In this document: in pieces, positions 36,819-45,437 of the stretch | Layout of the letters: each line of letters opens with the position of its first letter | Position numbering within the stretch: the stretch's first letter is position 1 | Source of the DNA: a bacterium | Lineage (GTDB): Bacteria; Vulcanimicrobiota; JABDET01 | Direction of reading: 5' to 3' | Assembly: GCA_021817145.1 (NCBI GenBank) | Contig: JAKAVV010000008.1 | Coordinates: forward strand, 1-64,000 | DNA length: 64,000 nucleotides | The notes under the pieces: generated by a model | Databases searched by the model: none | Told to the model about the DNA's origin: nothing | The model's input: only the letters and a program-made list of their open reading frames with translations | Program-made: the position numbers and the translations under genes

Positions 36819-38276
36819 ATGATCCAAGATACTGCTCAATCTCCTATTTCACAAAAACCAGAAGTAAAGCGGAGTTTAGTGGAGAAGAATTTTTTAGATC
36901 GACTCTGGGATTTTTTGAGTTCAGGGCAAATGGCTATTTGGCTATTAAGCTTATCAGCCTTAGCCGTTCTAATGGGAACGATCGTGGAACAGGATAAATC
37001 CCCCGAAAAGTATGTCAGAACTTATGGACCTTTAATCGCTCATTTAATTCAACTGCTCCACATTTACGATCTATACCACAGTTGGTGGTTTGAAATTTTA
37101 ATGGCATTCATCTGCCTTAATCTCTTCTTGTCAAACTTTAATCGAGGGGAAAAGGTGATCAAAAAGTATTATCACGCTCCTATTGTTATGGAACCCTCTT
37201 ATTTTAAGGACGCCCCTTCCAAAATAGTTAAAAGCGTGAAAACAGGGGTCCATGAAGCCTGTTTAAAACTAGAGAACGCTTTCCAAAAAACAAAATATGC
37301 TTTTCGGAAAGAGCAGTCAGGAGACTCTATTTATTATTACGCCGAAAAAGGGAAGATCACTGTATGGGGATCCCTTATTGCCCATATTGGTCTTCTTCTT
37401 CTGTTTGTTGGAATTATTGTGGGGCATTTTACAGGTGGATATTTTTTCGGACGCTATATTCCACCGCAAGGATTCGACCGCACAACCATGCTTCTTCCCG
37501 GCCAAAGTTATTACATTCCCGAAGGAAATTTTGGTTTCACATTGAAAAAATTTGTTGCCCGCTGGAACAAAGAGCGTCTTCCTATCCTTTATCGAAGCAC
37601 AGTTGCTGTTTTTAACAAAATGGGAAAAGATCTGTTTACATCCAGTATTGAAGTCAATCACCCTCTTGTTTATCATAATGTGAAAATCTATCAAGCAACC
37701 TATGCTCCAGGGTATATTGTTGGGCATTATACGGATTTGAATGGGAAAAATCATACTTTTAAAGTCATGGTGCAGCAAGGTTCAAGCATGTTTTTCCCTG
37801 TTCATCCAGGGAAAGGGAAAGAATGGATTGGAATGATCCGCAATTTTATCCCTGATATTGTATTCGGTCCTGATGGACAGGTTGGTTCATTCAGTAAAGA
37901 ACCTTATAATCCTGGAATTTACCTCATGCTTGTAACCAATATCAAAAAAATGCCTCCTGATCCAAAAAGCATAAAAAAAGTTGGCTGGCTGACGAAAAGT
38001 TTAACGGCATCTTATGATGGGATCAAATTTCATTTTGATAAACTGATTTTAATCAGTGGATTTGAAATTAAGAGAGATTTAGGGGTTCCTATTGTATTTG
38101 CAAGCTTTATCGTCATTGTTTTAGGTGTCATTTTAACTTTTTACACCCCTCATAAAGTGATTAGGGCGCAGGTTGCTGCCACTCCTGAAGGGTCTCAGAT
38201 TACGGTGGCTGCATCAAGAAAAGATAGAGAACAGAATTATGAAAAAGAATTTGATCTCGTTCAAAAGGTTTTTTGA
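36819..38276 (+). CDS. resB: Cytochrome c biogenesis protein ResB
   Basis: System II haem-ligase subunit in the inner membrane. It has 485 residues with TM segments at about 37-55 (MAIWLLSLSALAVLMGTIV), 90-108, 183-205 (WGSLIAHIGLLLLFVGIIVG) and 420-440 (VFASFIVIVLGVILTFY), and a large periplasmic domain between the last two. The SGQMAIWLL start and LIAHIGLLLLF are typical of ResB/Ccs1. Together with CcsA it exports haem and ligates it to CxxCH motifs, several of which are encoded nearby. Confidence 0.93.
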   Translation: MIQDTAQSPISQKPEVKRSLVEKNFLDRLWDFLSSGQMAIWLLSLSALAVLMGTIVEQDKSPEKYVRTYGPLIAHLIQLLHIYDLYHSWWFEILMAFICLNLFLSNFNRGEKVIKKYYHAPIVMEPSYFKDAPSKIVKSVKTGVHEACLKLENAFQKTKYAFRKEQSGDSIYYYAEKGKITVWGSLIAHIGLLLLFVGIIVGHFTGGYFFGRYIPPQGFDRTTMLLPGQSYYIPEGNFGFTLKKFVARWNKERLPILYRSTVAVFNKMGKDLFTSSIEVNHPLVYHNVKIYQATYAPGYIVGHYTDLNGKNHTFKVMVQQGSSMFFPVHPGKGKEWIGMIRNFIPDIVFGPDGQVGSFSKEPYNPGIYLMLVTNIKKMPPDPKSIKKVGWLTKSLTASYDGIKFHFDKLILISGFEIKRDLGVPIVFASFIVIVLGVILTFYTPHKVIRAQVAATPEGSQITVAASRKDREQNYEKEFDLVQKVF

Positions 38277-38349
38277 TTAGACTATTGAATTTCTCTATGA
38301 TTTAAGTTATGTTTCACCAAATTCTAACTTCATTGTAAAGGAGGGTTTT

Positions 38350-39390
38350 ATGCCTCAACCGCATTATATGGACGTGATTTACAATATTATTTTTGCAGGA
38401 TACTTATTGGCATCATTCTTTTATTTGGGCTTGCTGGTAAAACAAAATTTATCCTGGGCAAAATTAGGGAAAGCTATTTTAATTTCAACTGTTATTTTGC
38501 AGCTTATTTTCATCTTTTTACGAATGGTGGCAGACCGGAATTACGTGGGGTTCTGGTATGCGCCTCTTGCCAATCTGTTTGAAGAAGCCACCTGCTTAAC
38601 CTGCGCCCTTTCTATCTATTATCTGATAACTGAATCTTTCACAGGATTCAGAACATTAGGAACCATTATTGTTCCTCTAAACACCCTGCTGGTCACGTGG
38701 TGCGCTTTAGGGGGACCTGGTAACAGCGCCATGAGCTATAATCTTGAACAGCCGCCGCCGGCTCTTCGAAGTTATTGGATTGATATTCACGTTCCAGTCC
38801 ATCTTATCGCGTACAGCGCTCTTGTTGTTGCTTTTGGACTCGGGATTATGTATCTAGCAAAACATGCCCAAGAAGAAAAATGGAAACAGCTGCACAGGGG
38901 GGAAGATTTGCCTGTTACAGACCACCCCGAGGAACCACTCTCTTCTAAAGGCGGAGTTGCTGTCATCGAAAGAACAAAGAAGCCATCTGCTTCTTCTATG
39001 CAGAGATCAGCACAGCAAACTGGATTTTTATCCTGGGCTCCTCCAAGTGATAGAATTGACAAAATGATCTACAGGGCTGTTGTTATTGGTTTTGGTTTTT
39101 TGACTGCTTTAATTATGCTGGGGGCAACCTGGGCAGAGGTTTCATGGGGTACTTACTGGGGATGGGATCCAAAGGAAACTTCTGCCTTAATTACCTGGTT
39201 GGTCTATGCTGTTTATGTTCATGGGAGATTTATGCTTGGATGGGGGACCAAACAAAGAAGCTTGTTAGCCTGGCTCTGTATTATTGGATTTGCTTCTTTG
39301 ATGTTTACCTATTTAGGAGTAAGTTTTCTGCTTCCAGGACTGCACAGCTATTTAAGATCACTTGCTGTCCTTGGGCTTAAATCAATATAG
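38350..39390 (+). CDS. ccsA: Cytochrome c biogenesis protein CcsA (CcsB)
   Basis: Haem-handling subunit of System II. It has 346 residues and about eight TM helices. The WWD motif is in SWGTYWGWDPKETSALITW (about 265-285), and conserved haem-ligand histidines are in DIHVPVHL, YVHGRF and LPGLHSYL. An extra charged cytoplasmic loop (about 180-225, HAQEEKWKQL...QRSAQQ) is inserted between helices. AAAGGAGGG precedes the ATG. It lies 73 bp after resB and is followed by a strong terminator. Confidence 0.94.
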   Translation: MPQPHYMDVIYNIIFAGYLLASFFYLGLLVKQNLSWAKLGKAILISTVILQLIFIFLRMVADRNYVGFWYAPLANLFEEATCLTCALSIYYLITESFTGFRTLGTIIVPLNTLLVTWCALGGPGNSAMSYNLEQPPPALRSYWIDIHVPVHLIAYSALVVAFGLGIMYLAKHAQEEKWKQLHRGEDLPVTDHPEEPLSSKGGVAVIERTKKPSASSMQRSAQQTGFLSWAPPSDRIDKMIYRAVVIGFGFLTALIMLGATWAEVSWGTYWGWDPKETSALITWLVYAVYVHGRFMLGWGTKQRSLLAWLCIIGFASLMFTYLGVSFLLPGLHSYLRSLAVLGLKSI

Positions 39391-39440: not shown

Positions 39441-39531
39441 AGATAATTTGTGGAGGAGATTGTTCCATAGGGTTCCTCCTTCTTCTATAGAAATAATCAT
39501 ACAAAGAAATACAGACAAAAAGGGGGATGAA

Positions 39532-40296
39532 TTGCTCGAAAAGAAGAAAATTGTTGTTACTCGCCCTCTTGGACAAGAGAAATCCTTCATCAAACTGCTC
39601 CAGAATGCTGGAGCTATTGTTTTCCACTGTCCCACAATTAAAATCTCCCCCTGTTATAATCCAAAAGAATTTCTTTCTATCCTTAGTGAGAAACGGTACG
39701 ACTGGGTTTGCTTCACCAGCGCAAATGGAGTTAACCTTGCCCTGGATTTTGCTGAAAAAGAAGAAAAAATGGATTTTTTTCGCGCGGCTCAGATTGCTTG
39801 CATAGGGCCAGCAACACAGGAAACTCTTAAAGCAAGAGGGGTTGAGTCAAGCCTCATCCCTGAGCAGTTCCAAGCAGAAGGACTGATTTCAACCCTTCAG
39901 AAAGAAAATTTAAAAGGGAAATCTTTTCTTCTACTGAGAGCAAAAGGGGCCAGAAAAATTTTAAGAGAAGCTCTAGCTGCTGAGGGGGCTTCTGTTTTAG
40001 AGTTCCCACTTTATGATACTTTCCCTGATCCTCAAGGGCTGCAAACTCTTAAAGCTTTATTAAAAACAAACAGCGCTGATGTGATTACTTTCACCAGTTC
40101 TTCAACTGTTCGATCTTTTAAACAGCTGATCCTTGAAGAAAGGGTAGAAGTTTTGCCAGAAACACTTATCTTCGCTTCAATTGGCCCCATCACTTCCAAT
40201 ACTCTCCTTGAAGAAGGATTATGGGTCAATGTAGAAGCTAAAACTTCTACAACCAAAGGGTTAGTAGAATCACTGGAAGAATTTTTTAACCCATGA
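39532..40296 (+). CDS. hemD: Uroporphyrinogen-III synthase
   Basis: Closes and inverts ring D to give uroporphyrinogen III. About 254 residues: KKKIVVTRPLGQEKSF at the start, DWVCFTSANGVNLAL, ACIGPATQETLKARG and DVITFTSSSTVRSF, the usual two-domain HemD pattern. I choose TTG 39532, preceded by AAAAAGGGGG; a frame extension to 39448 would overlap the terminator region and has no conserved residues. The stop overlaps hemL by 4 bp. Confidence 0.9.
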   Translation: MLEKKKIVVTRPLGQEKSFIKLLQNAGAIVFHCPTIKISPCYNPKEFLSILSEKRYDWVCFTSANGVNLALDFAEKEEKMDFFRAAQIACIGPATQETLKARGVESSLIPEQFQAEGLISTLQKENLKGKSFLLLRAKGARKILREALAAEGASVLEFPLYDTFPDPQGLQTLKALLKTNSADVITFTSSSTVRSFKQLILEERVEVLPETLIFASIGPITSNTLLEEGLWVNVEAKTSTTKGLVESLEEFFNP

Positions 40297-41615
40297 ACCC
40301 AAAATTGTCAAAATCAAAGTCGGAAGAATGGTTTAAAAGAGCAAAAGCCGTTATTCCAGGAGGAGTAAATTCACCTGTCAGAGCTTTTACATCTGTTGGA
40401 GAAACACCTCCATTTATAACAAAAGGTTCTGAAGCATATTTATGGGATGAAGATGGAAATCAGTACATTGATTATGTCTGTTCATGGGGACCGCTTATTC
40501 TTGGACATGCGCATCCAGAAATAGTAAAAACAGTAAAAAGCGCTGCGGAAAACGGTTTAACTTTTGGAGCTGCGACTCGTAATGAAGTCATCCTGGCAGA
40601 GATCATTCAATCAGCGATTCCTTCAATACAAAAGCTAAGACTTGTCACTTCTGGAACAGAAGCTGCAATGACAGCTGTTCGACTGGCAAGAGCTTTTACG
40701 GGAAAAAAAATGATCTTAAAATTTGAAGGATGCTATCATGGACATGCTGATCCATTCCTTGTAAAAGCTGGATCTGGACTTTTAACATTTGGGACCCCTT
40801 CAAGCCGAGGGATTCCAGAAGAAGTCTCCTCTAGCACTCTGGTAGCCCATTACAATGCTGAAGCAGATTTAGATGAAATTTTTATGAAACAGGGGAAAGA
40901 TATCGCTTGTGTTATCGTTGAACCAGTGGCAGGAAACATGGGGGTTGTCCTTCCCAAGCTCGGCTTTTTAGAAAAACTTTCTTCCCTCTGCAGACAGACA
41001 AAAACGGTCTTGATTTTTGACGAAGTCATAACAGGCTTCAGAACTTGTTATGGAGGGTATCAGAATCTTTGTGGTATTTCCCCTGATTTAACTTGCCTTG
41101 GGAAAATTATTGGAGGGGGGCTCCCAATGGCTGCTGTAGGCGGAAAAAATGAAATTATGTCCCTCTTGTCCCCAGAAGGTCCTGTCTATCAAGCAGGAAC
41201 CCTTGCCGGCAATCCGGCAGCAGTGGCTGCAGGAATTGCCACTCTAAAAGTTTTAAATCAGAAAAAAGAAAAAATATATGAGGAACTAGAACAGAAAACC
41301 GCATGGCTAACCTCAAAAATAAAAAACGCTGCGGAAAAATTAAAACTACCCATTAAAATCAATAGGATGGGTTCTATGTTTACTCTTTTTTTCTCCGATA
41401 ACCCTGTTGAGAGTTTCTCTGATGTTATTTCCTCTCGTACAAACCTTTACAAACCTTTTTTTAAAGAGATGCTGGAAAATAAAATTTACCTTCCGCCCTC
41501 TGCTTTTGAAGCCTGGTTTATGTCAACAGCTCATAGGCAGCAGGATCTTGAAAAAACGGCGCAGTATGCCGAAAAAGCTTTTATCAAAGTAAAGGCGGCT
41601 CTTACGCTCTTATGA
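40293..41615 (+). CDS. hemL: Glutamate-1-semialdehyde 2,1-aminomutase
   Basis: PLP enzyme making 5-aminolevulinate in the C5 haem pathway. It has 440 residues with IPGGVNSPVRAF near the start, VTSGTEAAMTAVRLAR, FEGCYHGHAD, FDEVITGFR and Schiff-base Lys near 271 (LGKIIGGGLPM). It overlaps hemD at ATGA and the TPR/Pro-rich gene at its 3' end by 4 bp, so hemD, hemL and the following genes are one operon. Confidence 0.97.
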   Translation: MNPKLSKSKSEEWFKRAKAVIPGGVNSPVRAFTSVGETPPFITKGSEAYLWDEDGNQYIDYVCSWGPLILGHAHPEIVKTVKSAAENGLTFGAATRNEVILAEIIQSAIPSIQKLRLVTSGTEAAMTAVRLARAFTGKKMILKFEGCYHGHADPFLVKAGSGLLTFGTPSSRGIPEEVSSSTLVAHYNAEADLDEIFMKQGKDIACVIVEPVAGNMGVVLPKLGFLEKLSSLCRQTKTVLIFDEVITGFRTCYGGYQNLCGISPDLTCLGKIIGGGLPMAAVGGKNEIMSLLSPEGPVYQAGTLAGNPAAVAAGIATLKVLNQKKEKIYEELEQKTAWLTSKIKNAAEKLKLPIKINRMGSMFTLFFSDNPVESFSDVISSRTNLYKPFFKEMLENKIYLPPSAFEAWFMSTAHRQQDLEKTAQYAEKAFIKVKAALTLL

Positions 41616-42664
41616 ATGACAAAATTAAAAACCATATCCAGGAAGGTGATAAAGCGGCCCAACAAAAAGACTGGGATACTGCTCTTAACTGGTATGAAAG
41701 AGCTCTGGAATTTTCCCCTTTTGAGAATGAAATTCATGAAAAGATTATTCACTGTCACATTAACAGAAAAGATAGGAAGAGGTATCTTGAAGCTGTTAAT
41801 CGCTATAGAAACGCTAAAAATTCCGCTCCTATACCCCAACAGACTCTATCTCATAAATTAATTGAACCTCCTAAACCTCAACCCACTAAACCTGAACCCA
41901 CTAAACCTGAACCTCCTAAACCTGAACCTCCTAAACCTCAACCCACTAAACCTGAACCTCCTAAACCTCAACCCACTAAACCTGAACCTCCTAAACCTGA
42001 ACCCACTAAACCTGAACCTCCTAAACCTCAACCCACTAAACCTGAACCTCCTAAACCTGAACCTCCTAAACCTGAACCTCCTAAACCTGAACCTCCTAAA
42101 CCTGAACCTCCTAAACCTGAACCTCCTAAACCTGAACCCACTAAACCTGAACCTCCTAAACCTCAACCCACTAAACCTGAACCTCCTAAACCTGAACCCA
42201 CTAAACCTGAACCTCCTAAACCTCAACCCACTAAACCTGAACCTCCTAAACCTCAACCCACTAAACCTGAACCTCCTAAACCTCAACCCACTAAACCTGA
42301 ACCTCCTAAACCTGAACCCACTAAAAAAACAAAAGAAATCCCCTTATTCAGCACCATCGAATCTGCCCCATCACTTAAAAGATCTTCCGATATTTCTGAG
42401 GCGGAAATGATTGAAGCAGATGCTGAACAGTGGGAAAAACGAGGAGAAAAGGAGACTGCTTCAAAATCTTATGCACAAGCAGCTTATCTATGGAAACAGA
42501 AAGGAGACAACGCGCGAGCAGGGCTAGCTTATGAAAAATCTTATGAATTTTCCCCTAACCCCGAAATACTTACTCAATTAAATGAACTCTACAGCCAAGG
42601 GGTCAAACTAAAACAGTCAACCGTTATGGAAATTTATAAAAAAATCTACCACATGAAAATTTAA
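41612..42664 (+). CDS. TPR protein split by a long Pro-rich KPEPPKPEPTKP repeat
   Basis: A 350-residue soluble protein. Residues 1-75 form two TPR-like helices (GDKAAQQKDWDTALNWYERALEFSP). About 85-238 is a low-complexity stretch of KPEPP / KPEPT / KPQPT units, likely a stiff polyproline spacer. About 255-350 is a second TPR-like helical part (KSYAQAAYLWKQKGDNARAGLAYEKS). No signal peptide or TM segment, so unlike TonB the repeat should be cytoplasmic. It overlaps hemL by 4 bp and lies 14 bp before the PilZ gene. It may scaffold partners across a distance; no known family. Confidence 0.8.
   Translation: MNDKIKNHIQEGDKAAQQKDWDTALNWYERALEFSPFENEIHEKIIHCHINRKDRKRYLEAVNRYRNAKNSAPIPQQTLSHKLIEPPKPQPTKPEPTKPEPPKPEPPKPQPTKPEPPKPQPTKPEPPKPEPTKPEPPKPQPTKPEPPKPEPPKPEPPKPEPPKPEPPKPEPPKPEPTKPEPPKPQPTKPEPPKPEPTKPEPPKPQPTKPEPPKPQPTKPEPPKPQPTKPEPPKPEPTKKTKEIPLFSTIESAPSLKRSSDISEAEMIEADAEQWEKRGEKETASKSYAQAAYLWKQKGDNARAGLAYEKSYEFSPNPEILTQLNELYSQGVKLKQSTVMEIYKKIYHMKI
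41866..42324 (+). repeat. Short tandem repeats encoding the Pro-rich spacer
   Basis: About 460 bp of 15-bp units of the type CCTAAACCTGAACCT with variants ending in CCCA or CTCAA. Because the unit is 5 codons without stops in other frames, the plus-2 frame (LNLNPLNLN) and the minus strand (RFRRFRFSG) are open too. Only the KPEP frame joins two folded domains in an operon, so it is the coding one. Confidence 0.95.
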
Positions 42665-42678
42665 GGAGTTGACTTGAA

Positions 42679-43044
42679 ATGACTGATTTTGAAGAAAGAA
42701 GAGAATTTGTGAGAATGCCTGCCAGTTCCAAAGCTGTTGTCCACCAGAACAAAAAAAAGTGGGATGCGAGCGTTATTGACATCAGCCCTGGCGGATGTCA
42801 GCTCTTATGCTCCGAAAAACTGGAAAAAGAGATTCCGATAAAATTGGACTTTTTCTTTAATGCAGCAGATCCATCTGTTCGAATCCAAGGGAATATCGCA
42901 TGGACAAAAAAGCATGAATCTGAACCTCTTTGGAGGCATGGAATCCAATTCAAAGAAAAAGAAAAATTTGAAAAGCTGGGAGCAATGTTTATGGATTACT
43001 TAATTTTTAAGAAAAAAATGGAACAAATAAAAAAGGGGAAATAG
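42679..43044 (+). CDS. PilZ-domain protein (c-di-GMP binding)
   Basis: A 121-residue single PilZ domain. The c-di-GMP motifs are intact: RxxxR in RREFVRMP (7-14) and DxSxxG in DISPGG (34-39). AAGGAG lies 9-14 bases before the ATG (GGAG at 42664-42667). It sits between the Pro-rich TPR gene and the haem-motif membrane proteins, suggesting that second-messenger input is linked to that system. Confidence 0.9.
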   Translation: MTDFEERREFVRMPASSKAVVHQNKKKWDASVIDISPGGCQLLCSEKLEKEIPIKLDFFFNAADPSVRIQGNIAWTKKHESEPLWRHGIQFKEKEKFEKLGAMFMDYLIFKKKMEQIKKGK

Positions 43045-43071: not shown

Positions 43072-44025
43072 ATGAAATTTGTTTACAGCATTCGATTCAG
43101 ACTTTTGATCTCAATTTTGATTTTTATTCTTCTATTTATGCCAGTTTTGTGGATTGTTGCCATTCATTTTGGAAAAAAAGAACTGCGATCCACTTACAAG
43201 ACCAGCAAAAGAGAAATCATGAAAAACACTAAACGTTGGACAGCCATTACAGCACGTTTGATTTTTGGCTCATTAAGAGAATCTATGGCTAAATACGATG
43301 TAAGCGCCATGGAAAAGATTGTTCAAATGGCCAGAGCGCAGAAAGACATTGAAGCCGTTCGAGTCTTTGGTCCAAAAATGTTTCCTGGACCCAATAACTC
43401 TCTTGTTGGACAGTTAAGGTTTAATGGAGATACAAAAAAACGCCCCCCACAGGTTTACAACATAGAATGCAGCGCCTGTCATACTTCTACAGGGGCATTG
43501 AGGATTAAAGTAAAAACCAAAAAAGCAGCCATGGTGGATGCGCAGGCAAGAATTGATGTTAGAACAAGCGCGCTCAACATAAAACACCATGGGGTTTTTG
43601 AAATGATTGTGCATGTTTTTAACCAGGCAGACCCCTGCTACCAATGTCATCTCCCTACCCAAAAAGTGAATGGAGTGATACAGGTGGACATCTCTGAGAA
43701 AAACGTGCGCAAACTCCTCCGCTCTATGAAAAAGAAAGAAAAAGAGACCGAAAAAAAATTCGAGCAGCAGATTGTTCTCTGGACATTACTCTTTATGTTC
43801 ATCTCTTCCGCAATTCTGTTGGTCATCGCGACTGGAATCGTAAATAAACTGGCTAAACTTAAATCTGTGGCAGAACGGGTGAGCCTTGGAGAGACAAATG
43901 TTACCATGGAGGATATTCCTCCTTCCTCTGATGAAGTTGGAGAACTCAGAGATTCTTTTGAACGAATGTTAGTCGCTGTAAAATTCTTCATGACTCCAGA
44001 AGAAGAACCGGAGGAACCTGTCTAA
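43072..44025 (+). CDS. Two-haem-motif membrane sensor with terminal HAMP-like region (copy A)
   Basis: 317 residues: TM1 at about 9-33, a periplasmic domain (34-232) carrying two CxxCH sites (CSACH near 132 and CYQCH near 189), TM2 at about 233-257 and a cytoplasmic HAMP-like region (LAKLKSVAERVSLGETNVTMEDIPPSSDEVGELRDSFERM) followed by a short acidic tail ending in EEPV. No kinase, methyl-accepting or cyclase domain follows, although the HAMP normally feeds one. The periplasmic part resembles haem-containing sensor domains of chemoreceptor type. The next gene starts at once (TAAATG), so its small product is the obvious partner. Confidence 0.85.
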   Translation: MKFVYSIRFRLLISILIFILLFMPVLWIVAIHFGKKELRSTYKTSKREIMKNTKRWTAITARLIFGSLRESMAKYDVSAMEKIVQMARAQKDIEAVRVFGPKMFPGPNNSLVGQLRFNGDTKKRPPQVYNIECSACHTSTGALRIKVKTKKAAMVDAQARIDVRTSALNIKHHGVFEMIVHVFNQADPCYQCHLPTQKVNGVIQVDISEKNVRKLLRSMKKKEKETEKKFEQQIVLWTLLFMFISSAILLVIATGIVNKLAKLKSVAERVSLGETNVTMEDIPPSSDEVGELRDSFERMLVAVKFFMTPEEEPEEPV

Positions 44026-44244
44026 ATGGCTCTTTACGACGAAATCGTCTCTCTCTCTAAACCTTATCTCGGAATCGCTACTGATGCTTTCCTTAAACGG
44101 CAGTTAAAACATATTAATCGAACCCCTGAATCCATGGATAAAGCCTCCATCCCTGAACTCGCTAAATGGATCGAAATCTCTTCAAAAATGCTGATGGGTG
44201 AAGCAAAAGCAAAAACCCTGAAAGAAAAAATCCTGAACCTGGGG
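43826..44244 (+). repeat. Near-identical 419-bp direct repeat, copy A
   Basis: Matches 45013-45431 without indels. It covers TM2 end, HAMP, acidic tail and the whole small gene. Within the small gene I count only three base differences in about 215, all synonymous, while the upstream periplasmic domains are strongly diverged. Confidence 0.9.
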
Positions 44245-44253
44245 GGATCATGA
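44026..44253 (+). CDS. Small soluble partner of the haem-motif sensor (copy A)
   Basis: A 75-residue, all-helical, basic protein (MALYDEIVSLSKPYLG...). It has no Cys and no TM segment. Segments SKPYLGIATDAFLKRQL and IPELAKWIEISSKMLMGEAKAKTL are conserved in copy B; I recall similar short proteins next to sensor genes in other bacteria, without known function. It starts directly after the sensor stop and overlaps the second sensor by 4 bp (ATGA). Confidence 0.82.
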   Translation: MALYDEIVSLSKPYLGIATDAFLKRQLKHINRTPESMDKASIPELAKWIEISSKMLMGEAKAKTLKEKILNLGGS

Positions 44254-45212
44254 AGTTTATTCACAGCATTCGATTTAAGCTTCTGGCAGCAATTCTTCTC
44301 TTTGTGACATTCTCTGTTACCCTTCTTTTATACACTGTCCTTCACTTTGGGAAGAAAGAACTAAAAGTAACTTATACAGAAGGGAAAAAGAAAATCATAA
44401 GCGATACCAAAGAATGGTCTCTTGTTCTAGCTCACTTAACTTTTGGAGCCTTGAGTCGATCTATGGAAGATGGGGATGTGGATGCGCTGCAAAAACTTAC
44501 AACCATGGCAAGAGAGCAGAAAGACATTGAAGCTGTTCGCATTTTCAGCCCACAGTTAACAGCAGGAAACAACGGCAAATTAAAAGGGGTTCTGCTCTTT
44601 ACGGGTGATACCCATGGATATCCTGAAAAAGTAAAAAAGATTGACTGCGCGAAATGTCATAACAGCGATGGAACATTGAATCAAACAGGGCTTGCTCTAA
44701 AGCCAAAACCCGCTATGCTGGATTCTCAAGTTAGAATTGACGCAAACTGGAGAGCAGAAAATTTACAGGGAAACCGAACTTTTGGAATGATTGTTCATGT
44801 TTTTAATCAAGCCTCTTGTTCAGAATGTCATACCCACCCATCTACTCAAAAAGTGGATGGAGTGATTCAACTTAACATTTCTCTAAAAGATGTAAAAAGA
44901 CTTTTAAAAAGAATGCATCGGCGAGCAGAACGAAACGAACAGCATTTTAGAAATGAAGTTCTTGTGTGGACACTGGTTTGCGTTTTTATTCTCTCAGCTA
45001 TTTTGTTGTTTGTCGCGACTGGAATCGTAAATAAACTGGCTAAACTCAGATATATCGCAGAACAGGTCAGCCTTGGAGAGACCAATGTTACCATGGATGA
45101 TATTCCTCCTTCCTCTGATGAACTCGGAGAGCTGAGAGACTCATTTGAACGAATGTTAGTCGCCGTAAAATTCTTCATGATGCCAGAAGAAGAACCGGAG
45201 GAACCTGTCTAA
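44250..45212 (+). CDS. Two-haem-motif membrane sensor with terminal HAMP-like region (copy B)
   Basis: 320-residue paralogue of the previous sensor with the same layout: TM1 about 9-32, CAKCH near 133, CSECH near 190, TM2 about 237-260, HAMP-like region and the same EEEPEEPV tail. The periplasmic domain is clearly diverged from copy A (different loops before the first haem site and an insertion after it), while TM2-HAMP is nearly identical. This suggests different sensing and a common output. Confidence 0.85.
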   Translation: MKFIHSIRFKLLAAILLFVTFSVTLLLYTVLHFGKKELKVTYTEGKKKIISDTKEWSLVLAHLTFGALSRSMEDGDVDALQKLTTMAREQKDIEAVRIFSPQLTAGNNGKLKGVLLFTGDTHGYPEKVKKIDCAKCHNSDGTLNQTGLALKPKPAMLDSQVRIDANWRAENLQGNRTFGMIVHVFNQASCSECHTHPSTQKVDGVIQLNISLKDVKRLLKRMHRRAERNEQHFRNEVLVWTLVCVFILSAILLFVATGIVNKLAKLRYIAEQVSLGETNVTMDDIPPSSDELGELRDSFERMLVAVKFFMMPEEEPEEPV

Positions 45213-45431
45213 ATGGCTCTTTACGACGAAATCGTCTCTCTCTCTAAACCTTATCTCGGAATCGCCACTGACGCTTTCCTTAAACGCCAGTTAAAACATA
45301 TTAATCGAACCCCTGAATCCATGGATAAAGCCTCCATCCCTGAACTCGCTAAATGGATCGAAATCTCTTCAAAAATGCTGATGGGTGAAGCAAAAGCAAA
45401 AACCCTGAAAGAAAAAATCCTGAACCTGGGG
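45013..45431 (+). repeat. Near-identical 419-bp direct repeat, copy B
   Basis: Second copy of the block at 43826-44244, spanning HAMP-like region and small gene. The two copies are 1,187 bp apart in direct orientation, so recombination could delete or add one module. Confidence 0.9.
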
Positions 45432-45437
45432 CAGTAA
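45213..45437 (+). CDS. Small soluble partner of the haem-motif sensor (copy B)
   Basis: 74 residues, identical to copy A at protein level except at the C-terminus (NLGQ instead of NLGGS). It follows sensor copy B directly (TAAATG). No clear terminator follows before the mraZ promoter. Confidence 0.82.
   Translation: MALYDEIVSLSKPYLGIATDAFLKRQLKHINRTPESMDKASIPELAKWIEISSKMLMGEAKAKTLKEKILNLGQ

Follow-up and report, generated by a model that had tools for sequence, protein, structure and literature searches.

The window, that is, the whole stretch of DNA analysed here, is 64,000 nucleotides long and comes from a bacterium of the phylum Vulcanimicrobiota (GenBank assembly GCA_021817145.1, contig JAKAVV010000008.1, positions 1 to 64,000 of the forward strand). 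ORF calling places two tandem modules on the plus strand that fill positions 43072–45437, each built of a gene for a haem-HAMP sensor and a gene for a small helical protein (Table 1). In both modules, the TAA stop of the sensor gene abuts the ATG of the small gene with zero gap, and the stop of small gene A overlaps the ATG of sensor B in the sequence ATGA, so that all four genes look translationally coupled. The duplicated two-gene module that an earlier note had described here, with zero-gap junctions and two CxxCH sites between two transmembrane helices in each sensor, is present as described.

Table 1. Features of the locus, in window coordinates
Feature	Position	Strand	Description
ResB-like protein and CcsB	36819..39390	+	cytochrome c maturation genes
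hemD (uroporphyrinogen-III synthase) and hemL (glutamate-1-semialdehyde aminomutase)	39448..41615	+	
TPR protein with proline-rich repeat array	41612..42664	+	overlaps hemL
PilZ protein	42679..43044	+	E 3e-14; 27 bases upstream of sensor A
Haem-HAMP sensor A	43072..44025	+	317 aa; TM1, sCache-like periplasmic domain, two CxxCH, TM2, HAMP (252-301), short acidic tail
Homogenised block, copy A	43816..44244	+	last ~70 sensor codons (HAMP, tail) and small gene
Small helical protein A	44026..44253	+	75 aa; three DSSP helices; LGIATDA and MGEAKA turn-like motifs
Haem-HAMP sensor B	44250..45212	+	320 aa; 56% identity to sensor A overall; HAMP nearly identical
Homogenised block, copy B	45003..45431	+	site counts
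Small helical protein B	45213..45437	+	74 aa; 99% identity to small protein A

Both sensors carry their two CxxCH sites between an N-terminal hydrophobic helix and a second hydrophobic helix; in sensor A, the sites are C133-H137 and C189-H193, and the second helix spans approximately residues 233-257. The HAMP-like stretch obtains Pfam scores of 23.4 and 21.4 bits, just below the cut-off of 25, and contains the AS2 signature DE(V/L)GELxxSFxRM. The protein ends about 16 residues past the HAMP, in an acidic tail. A search of both sensors for an output domain in Pfam and NCBIfam found none, leaving HAMP as the sole cytosolic domain, in agreement with the earlier statement that the sensors stop soon after a HAMP-like region and carry no kinase, MCP, or cyclase. 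Both CxxCH sites, His181, and the segment around DSFxRM…KFFM are invariant across six haem-HAMP homologues.

The AlphaFold model of the sensor has a Cache-like periplasmic fold, with low confidence around the haem sites. Its best single-domain Foldseek matches are the extracellular (Cache-type) domains of WalK, with TM scores of 0.57-0.62 by target, for a model that is weak near the haem sites; a PDB sequence search with profiles of the sensor and the small protein returned nothing useful. The closest families lie in the sCache_heme group defined in a 2026 preprint, which comprises Tll0287/DUF3365, GSU0582, and GSU0935 (PMC12889525). PF11845 and PF21563 reach 15.1 and 21.5 bits on the sensor, under their curated cut-offs of 24.1 and 27, and the weak matches to the Geobacter Mcp40H haem sensor and Tll0287 families sit on the second CxxCH. 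This site occupies the place expected for the sCache_heme insert between two late strands (PF21563 71-111), and the sensors have a further CxxCH as well. The window sensors resemble sCache_heme proteins in their predicted Cache-like periplasmic domain, the CxxCH placed before the last strand, the two transmembrane helices, and the HAMP, but differ in having a second invariant CxxCH and sub-cut-off Pfam scores. A text search of PMC12889525 turned up no mention of a form with two haems or of a small protein coupled to the sensor. From these motifs, the periplasmic domain should bind two covalent c-type haems, and the locus appears to encode a haem-Cache sensor with two haems.

The small protein matches no family in Pfam or NCBIfam. 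It has no transmembrane helix and no CxxCH, and is predicted to be cytoplasmic. Its AlphaFold model is confident (mean pLDDT 90.5) and comprises three helices by DSSP. The highest Foldseek probability against the PDB, 0.93, belongs to 5a1q, the Archaeoglobus fulgidus protein Af1502, and the next best match listed has 0.57. The two structures superpose over 66 columns with TM scores of 0.68/0.73 and an rmsd of 2.1 Å, at an E-value of 1.5, a match to be read with the caveat that small helix bundles often match one another. 5A1Q is a four-helix bundle made of two alpha-hairpins, compared with the three DSSP helices of the model. At this E-value, the fold match is weak if taken alone. The gene context of Af1502, however, was not used in the fold search, so fold and gene arrangement agree independently. 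In that context, Af1503 is an archaeal receptor without an effector, whose HAMP is the sole cytosolic part, and it is translationally coupled to the 68-residue Af1502 (PMC4834066).

Af1502 is a STAC protein, and the relation of the small protein to this group is one of likeness. As the STAC definition has it (PMC4834066), the small protein stands alone, falls within 60-90 residues, and is coupled to a HAMP receptor that lacks an output. Of the STAC motif LGPx(x)A, located between h1 and h2, a part is kept, as LGIATDA and MGEAKA, with L15-G16-I17-A18 invariant and lacking the proline. When hhalign was used to align the small-protein profile with 12 CrbS/RpuS-type STAC domains, the score was not significant (P 0.27, reached by 32 of 100 shuffles). 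The STAC authors report that sequence methods fail likewise for Af1502 itself (PMC4834066). Given the hhalign result and the partly kept motif, we describe the small protein as working like Af1502, not as a member of its family. SLC5-STAC kinases were also considered as a local source of STAC domains: SSF was not matched in G000, the genome that contains the window, and none of the phylum's SSF hits falls in an open frame of more than 850 aa.

A search of 58 genomes from the phylum found the small protein in three: G000 has two copies, G001 (same genus) has two in the same tandem order, and G004 (another family) has one. A pattern-based scan of 84,980 species, which detects close relatives only, found no further copies. 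The phylum's other genomes gave weak profile matches (E 0.05–1) that span part of the profile, some of them in frames with stops; one, read in detail, falls inside an unrelated long ORF. A tblastn search of the small protein against plasmids gave chance matches only. The earlier note had asked whether the small protein always stands beside a haem-HAMP protein: all five copies found, in three genomes and two families, lie directly 3' of a haem-HAMP gene. The small gene has a dN/dS of ~0.12, and this value, together with conservation of the module in a same-genus genome and in another family of the phylum, argues against a chance arrangement. A sixth haem-HAMP gene, in G004 (L037:10483–11394, near hemL), has no small protein, which is therefore not an obligatory partner. 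Immediately beyond the module, synteny is lost; the second small gene is followed in G001 by a tRNA-Ser (L007:7413-7502) and in the window by mraZ-like genes.

The two modules have not diverged evenly. The sensor domains of G000 and G001 group as orthologues, A with A and B with B, at ~79% nucleotide identity; the A and B domains of one genome share ~64%. For the small genes the order is the reverse, with 97–99% identity inside each genome and 85–88% between G000 and G001. Across the block listed in Table 1, 45 informative sites support grouping within the genome and 3 support orthology, versus 0 and 30 in the 126 bases just upstream (Fisher P ~1.6e-18), and the switch falls at the TM2–HAMP junction. 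These counts indicate that gene conversion or recent copying kept the HAMP, the tail, and the small gene alike while the haem domains diverged. Because the HAMP and the small gene were homogenised together, the block is independent evidence that both work as a unit. Such homogenisation would be expected from a common interface between the HAMP and the small protein and from a single destination for the signals of both sensors; a less favoured explanation is conversion acting mechanically on sequences that were already alike.

We consider it probable that the module is a haem-c counterpart, in bacteria, of the split receptor Af1503/Af1502, in which the small protein acts as a putative HAMP reader. 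The periplasmic Cache-like domain, with two covalent c-type haems, would change shape with the redox state or with a bound gas such as NO, a stimulus we infer from the sCache_heme relatives. TM2 would relay the change to a HAMP dimer to which no output is fused. The small helical-bundle protein, co-produced with the sensor through translational coupling, would dock at the HAMP/AS2 end and serve as a cytoplasmic reader or adaptor. The two sensors may present different haem environments to one common interface, since the HAMP and the small gene are kept alike in both modules. From there, the signal might reach the soluble MCP/CheA chemotaxis machinery in trans. The idea that the small protein reads the HAMP in trans, put forward in the earlier note, gains from the invariable adjacency, the homogenised block, and the Af1502-like predicted fold, and is tempered by the G004 haem-HAMP paralogue that does without the small protein.

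The candidate output comes from G004, where the sensor gene is preceded on its own strand, at a distance of 43–46 bases, by the gene of a soluble MCP (L008:125–1411), an adjacency seen in one genome only. A soluble MCP is a known type of output, and in that genome it is encoded separately beside the pair. Its orthologue in G000 (L044:7277–8548; 42% identity over 407 aa) heads an operon with genes for a CheW-domain protein, CheA, CheY, CheC, CheD, CheB, and CheR, and G000 also has five flagellin genes. On one adjacency, the soluble MCP is the best-supported candidate partner for the window's pair, and we tentatively regard chemotaxis as the most likely target. More speculatively, the two-haem sensor half, a HAMP-reading adaptor, and the soluble MCP may form one chemoreceptor from three proteins; Af1502-type proteins would then do likewise, as part of a detachable adaptor system, a possibility we hold to be rather doubtful.

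Several features of the chemotaxis genes stand apart from the modules. In G000, G001, G002, and G004, a soluble MCP lies beside a menG–hemA–ccsA-like–hemC cluster, with gene names assigned by sequence reading (L044:5275-8548; L063; L065; L066), and in L063 a CheW gene sits between the MCP and the haem cluster. This arrangement is a conserved link of chemotaxis with haem synthesis genes. The CheW-domain protein of the che operon (L044:8557-9801) carries a receiver-like and a LuxR-type HTH segment before CheW, an unusual combination. A second soluble MCP of G000 (L046:6314-7468, 384 aa) is located outside both che clusters.

Elsewhere in the phylum, sensors with a single CxxCH have an output joined on via HAMP: an MCP in G046, a histidine kinase in G003, and cyclase-like ORFs in G009 and G053. 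In G038 (L117:1354-3440) and G044 (L118:1348-3443), an output-less Tll0287-like haem-HAMP gene (PF11845 E 1e-40) overlaps a Ser/Thr kinase gene, by ATGA in L117 and GTGA in L118. Read from the gene sequences, this arrangement is a second split haem-HAMP layout. The kinase ends in a YIGPLAK helical domain that has no Pfam match; compared with the small protein, it gave pairwise scores not above shuffles. With MCP, histidine kinase, cyclase-like, and Ser/Thr kinase partners, the haem-HAMP inputs of the phylum serve many outputs, both fused and split.

The sensors might instead act directly on the soluble MCP or another HAMP-compatible output, with the small protein only helping the HAMP dimer to assemble or stay stable. 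The MCP next to the G004 pair, the haem-sensor-HAMP-MCP fusion in the phylum, and the G004 paralogue that has no small protein all fit this explanation. We nevertheless judge it unlikely, because the small gene is strongly conserved and homogenised with the HAMP, and because archaeal Af1503-type receptors have the same kind of partner with no neighbouring MCP reported (PMC4834066).

The upstream genes bear on three further explanations. The gene order in the window is ResB-CcsB-hemD-hemL-TPR-PilZ-sensor. CcsB matches NCBIfam TIGR03144 (E 1e-62); the ORF at 36819-38276 has no NCBIfam match and is called ResB-like from gene order and sequence reading. These cytochrome c maturation genes are relevant since the sensors' haem attachment needs them. 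The gene order, and the position of the G004 paralogue, also near hemL, could point to a role for the small protein in haem or cytochrome c maturation, or in sensor assembly, and not in signalling. This role is improbable: the small gene of G004 is found beside an MCP and away from haem genes, the protein is predicted to be cytoplasmic and lacks the transmembrane helix and CxxCH, and its gene is homogenised with the HAMP and not with the haem domain.

It is equally improbable that the sensors are mainly redox carriers with HAMP as a mere dimerising anchor. Redox roles have been suggested for stand-alone sCache_heme forms (PMC12889525), and in G004 a DmsE-type decahaem cytochrome, with an 869-aa ORF that reads like an outer-membrane barrel (L038:2625-6193), lies on the opposite strand, several kb away from the pair. 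However, the HAMP-bearing form, a P. azotoformans sCache_heme protein with two transmembrane helices, binds NO and behaves as a sensor (PMC12889525), and in the window it is the HAMP that is homogenised.

The TPR gene contains a 15-base tandem array of 30 copies (window 41863-42318) that encodes a PKPEP-type proline-rich linker; its orthologue in the same genus has another repeat unit. The PilZ gene is probably on the same transcript as the sensor modules. It stands upstream of them in G000 and G001 only, so that of the earlier suggestion of a system including PilZ and a polyproline TPR protein, both genes are real and the link to the modules holds within the genus. A stronger functional link ties the modules to haem genes, to cytochrome c maturation genes, and, in G004 alone, to the soluble MCP. 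Control of c-di-GMP or type IV pili through the adjacent PilZ protein, in keeping with its position 27 bases upstream in both genomes of the genus and with several PilT-family ATPases in G000, has a similarly low probability as the output, given that the G004 locus has no PilZ.

A bacterial haem-c counterpart of Af1503/Af1502, the reading we prefer, can be set against known systems. The layout was called new in the earlier note, a claim that does not stand: archaeal receptors of the Af1503 kind, in which no domain follows HAMP and which are translationally coupled to a STAC protein of 60-90 residues, have been on record since 2015 (PMC4834066), and two-transmembrane haem-c Cache-HAMP proteins that bind NO have been characterised (PMC12889525). 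The window modules share with Af1503/Af1502 (PDB 5A1Q; PMC4834066) a receptor ending at HAMP and a coupled partner of 60-90 aa, predicted to be a helical bundle with a TM of ~0.7 to Af1502; Af1503 itself is likened by layout. They differ in being bacterial, in the Cache-like domain with two CxxCH, in forming tandem duplicate pairs, and in their context of soluble-MCP and haem genes, where that of Af1503/Af1502 consists of transporters. With Af1502 itself, the likeness is one of predicted fold, as the STAC motif is kept partly and the profile match is not significant. The bipartite energy-taxis receptor CetA/CetB (PMC2628428) is likewise a chemoreceptor divided between two proteins around HAMP, but CetA/CetB keep HAMP and the MCP domain together with the PAS sensor separate, whereas here sensor and HAMP stay together and any MCP part is separate. 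In the STAC-linked histidine kinases CbrA and CrbS, STAC is also a small bundle between membrane input and cytoplasmic output; there, in contrast, it is covalently linked to SLC5 and kinase domains.

The HAMP of Af1503 is a standard structural model, and the target of Af1503-type output-less receptors is left open in the published accounts we found. The locus offers a bacterial counterpart whose input, haem, can be read, and the soluble MCP gives it a definite candidate for the output. In its duplicated set-up, evolution marks the HAMP and the small protein as a functional unit.
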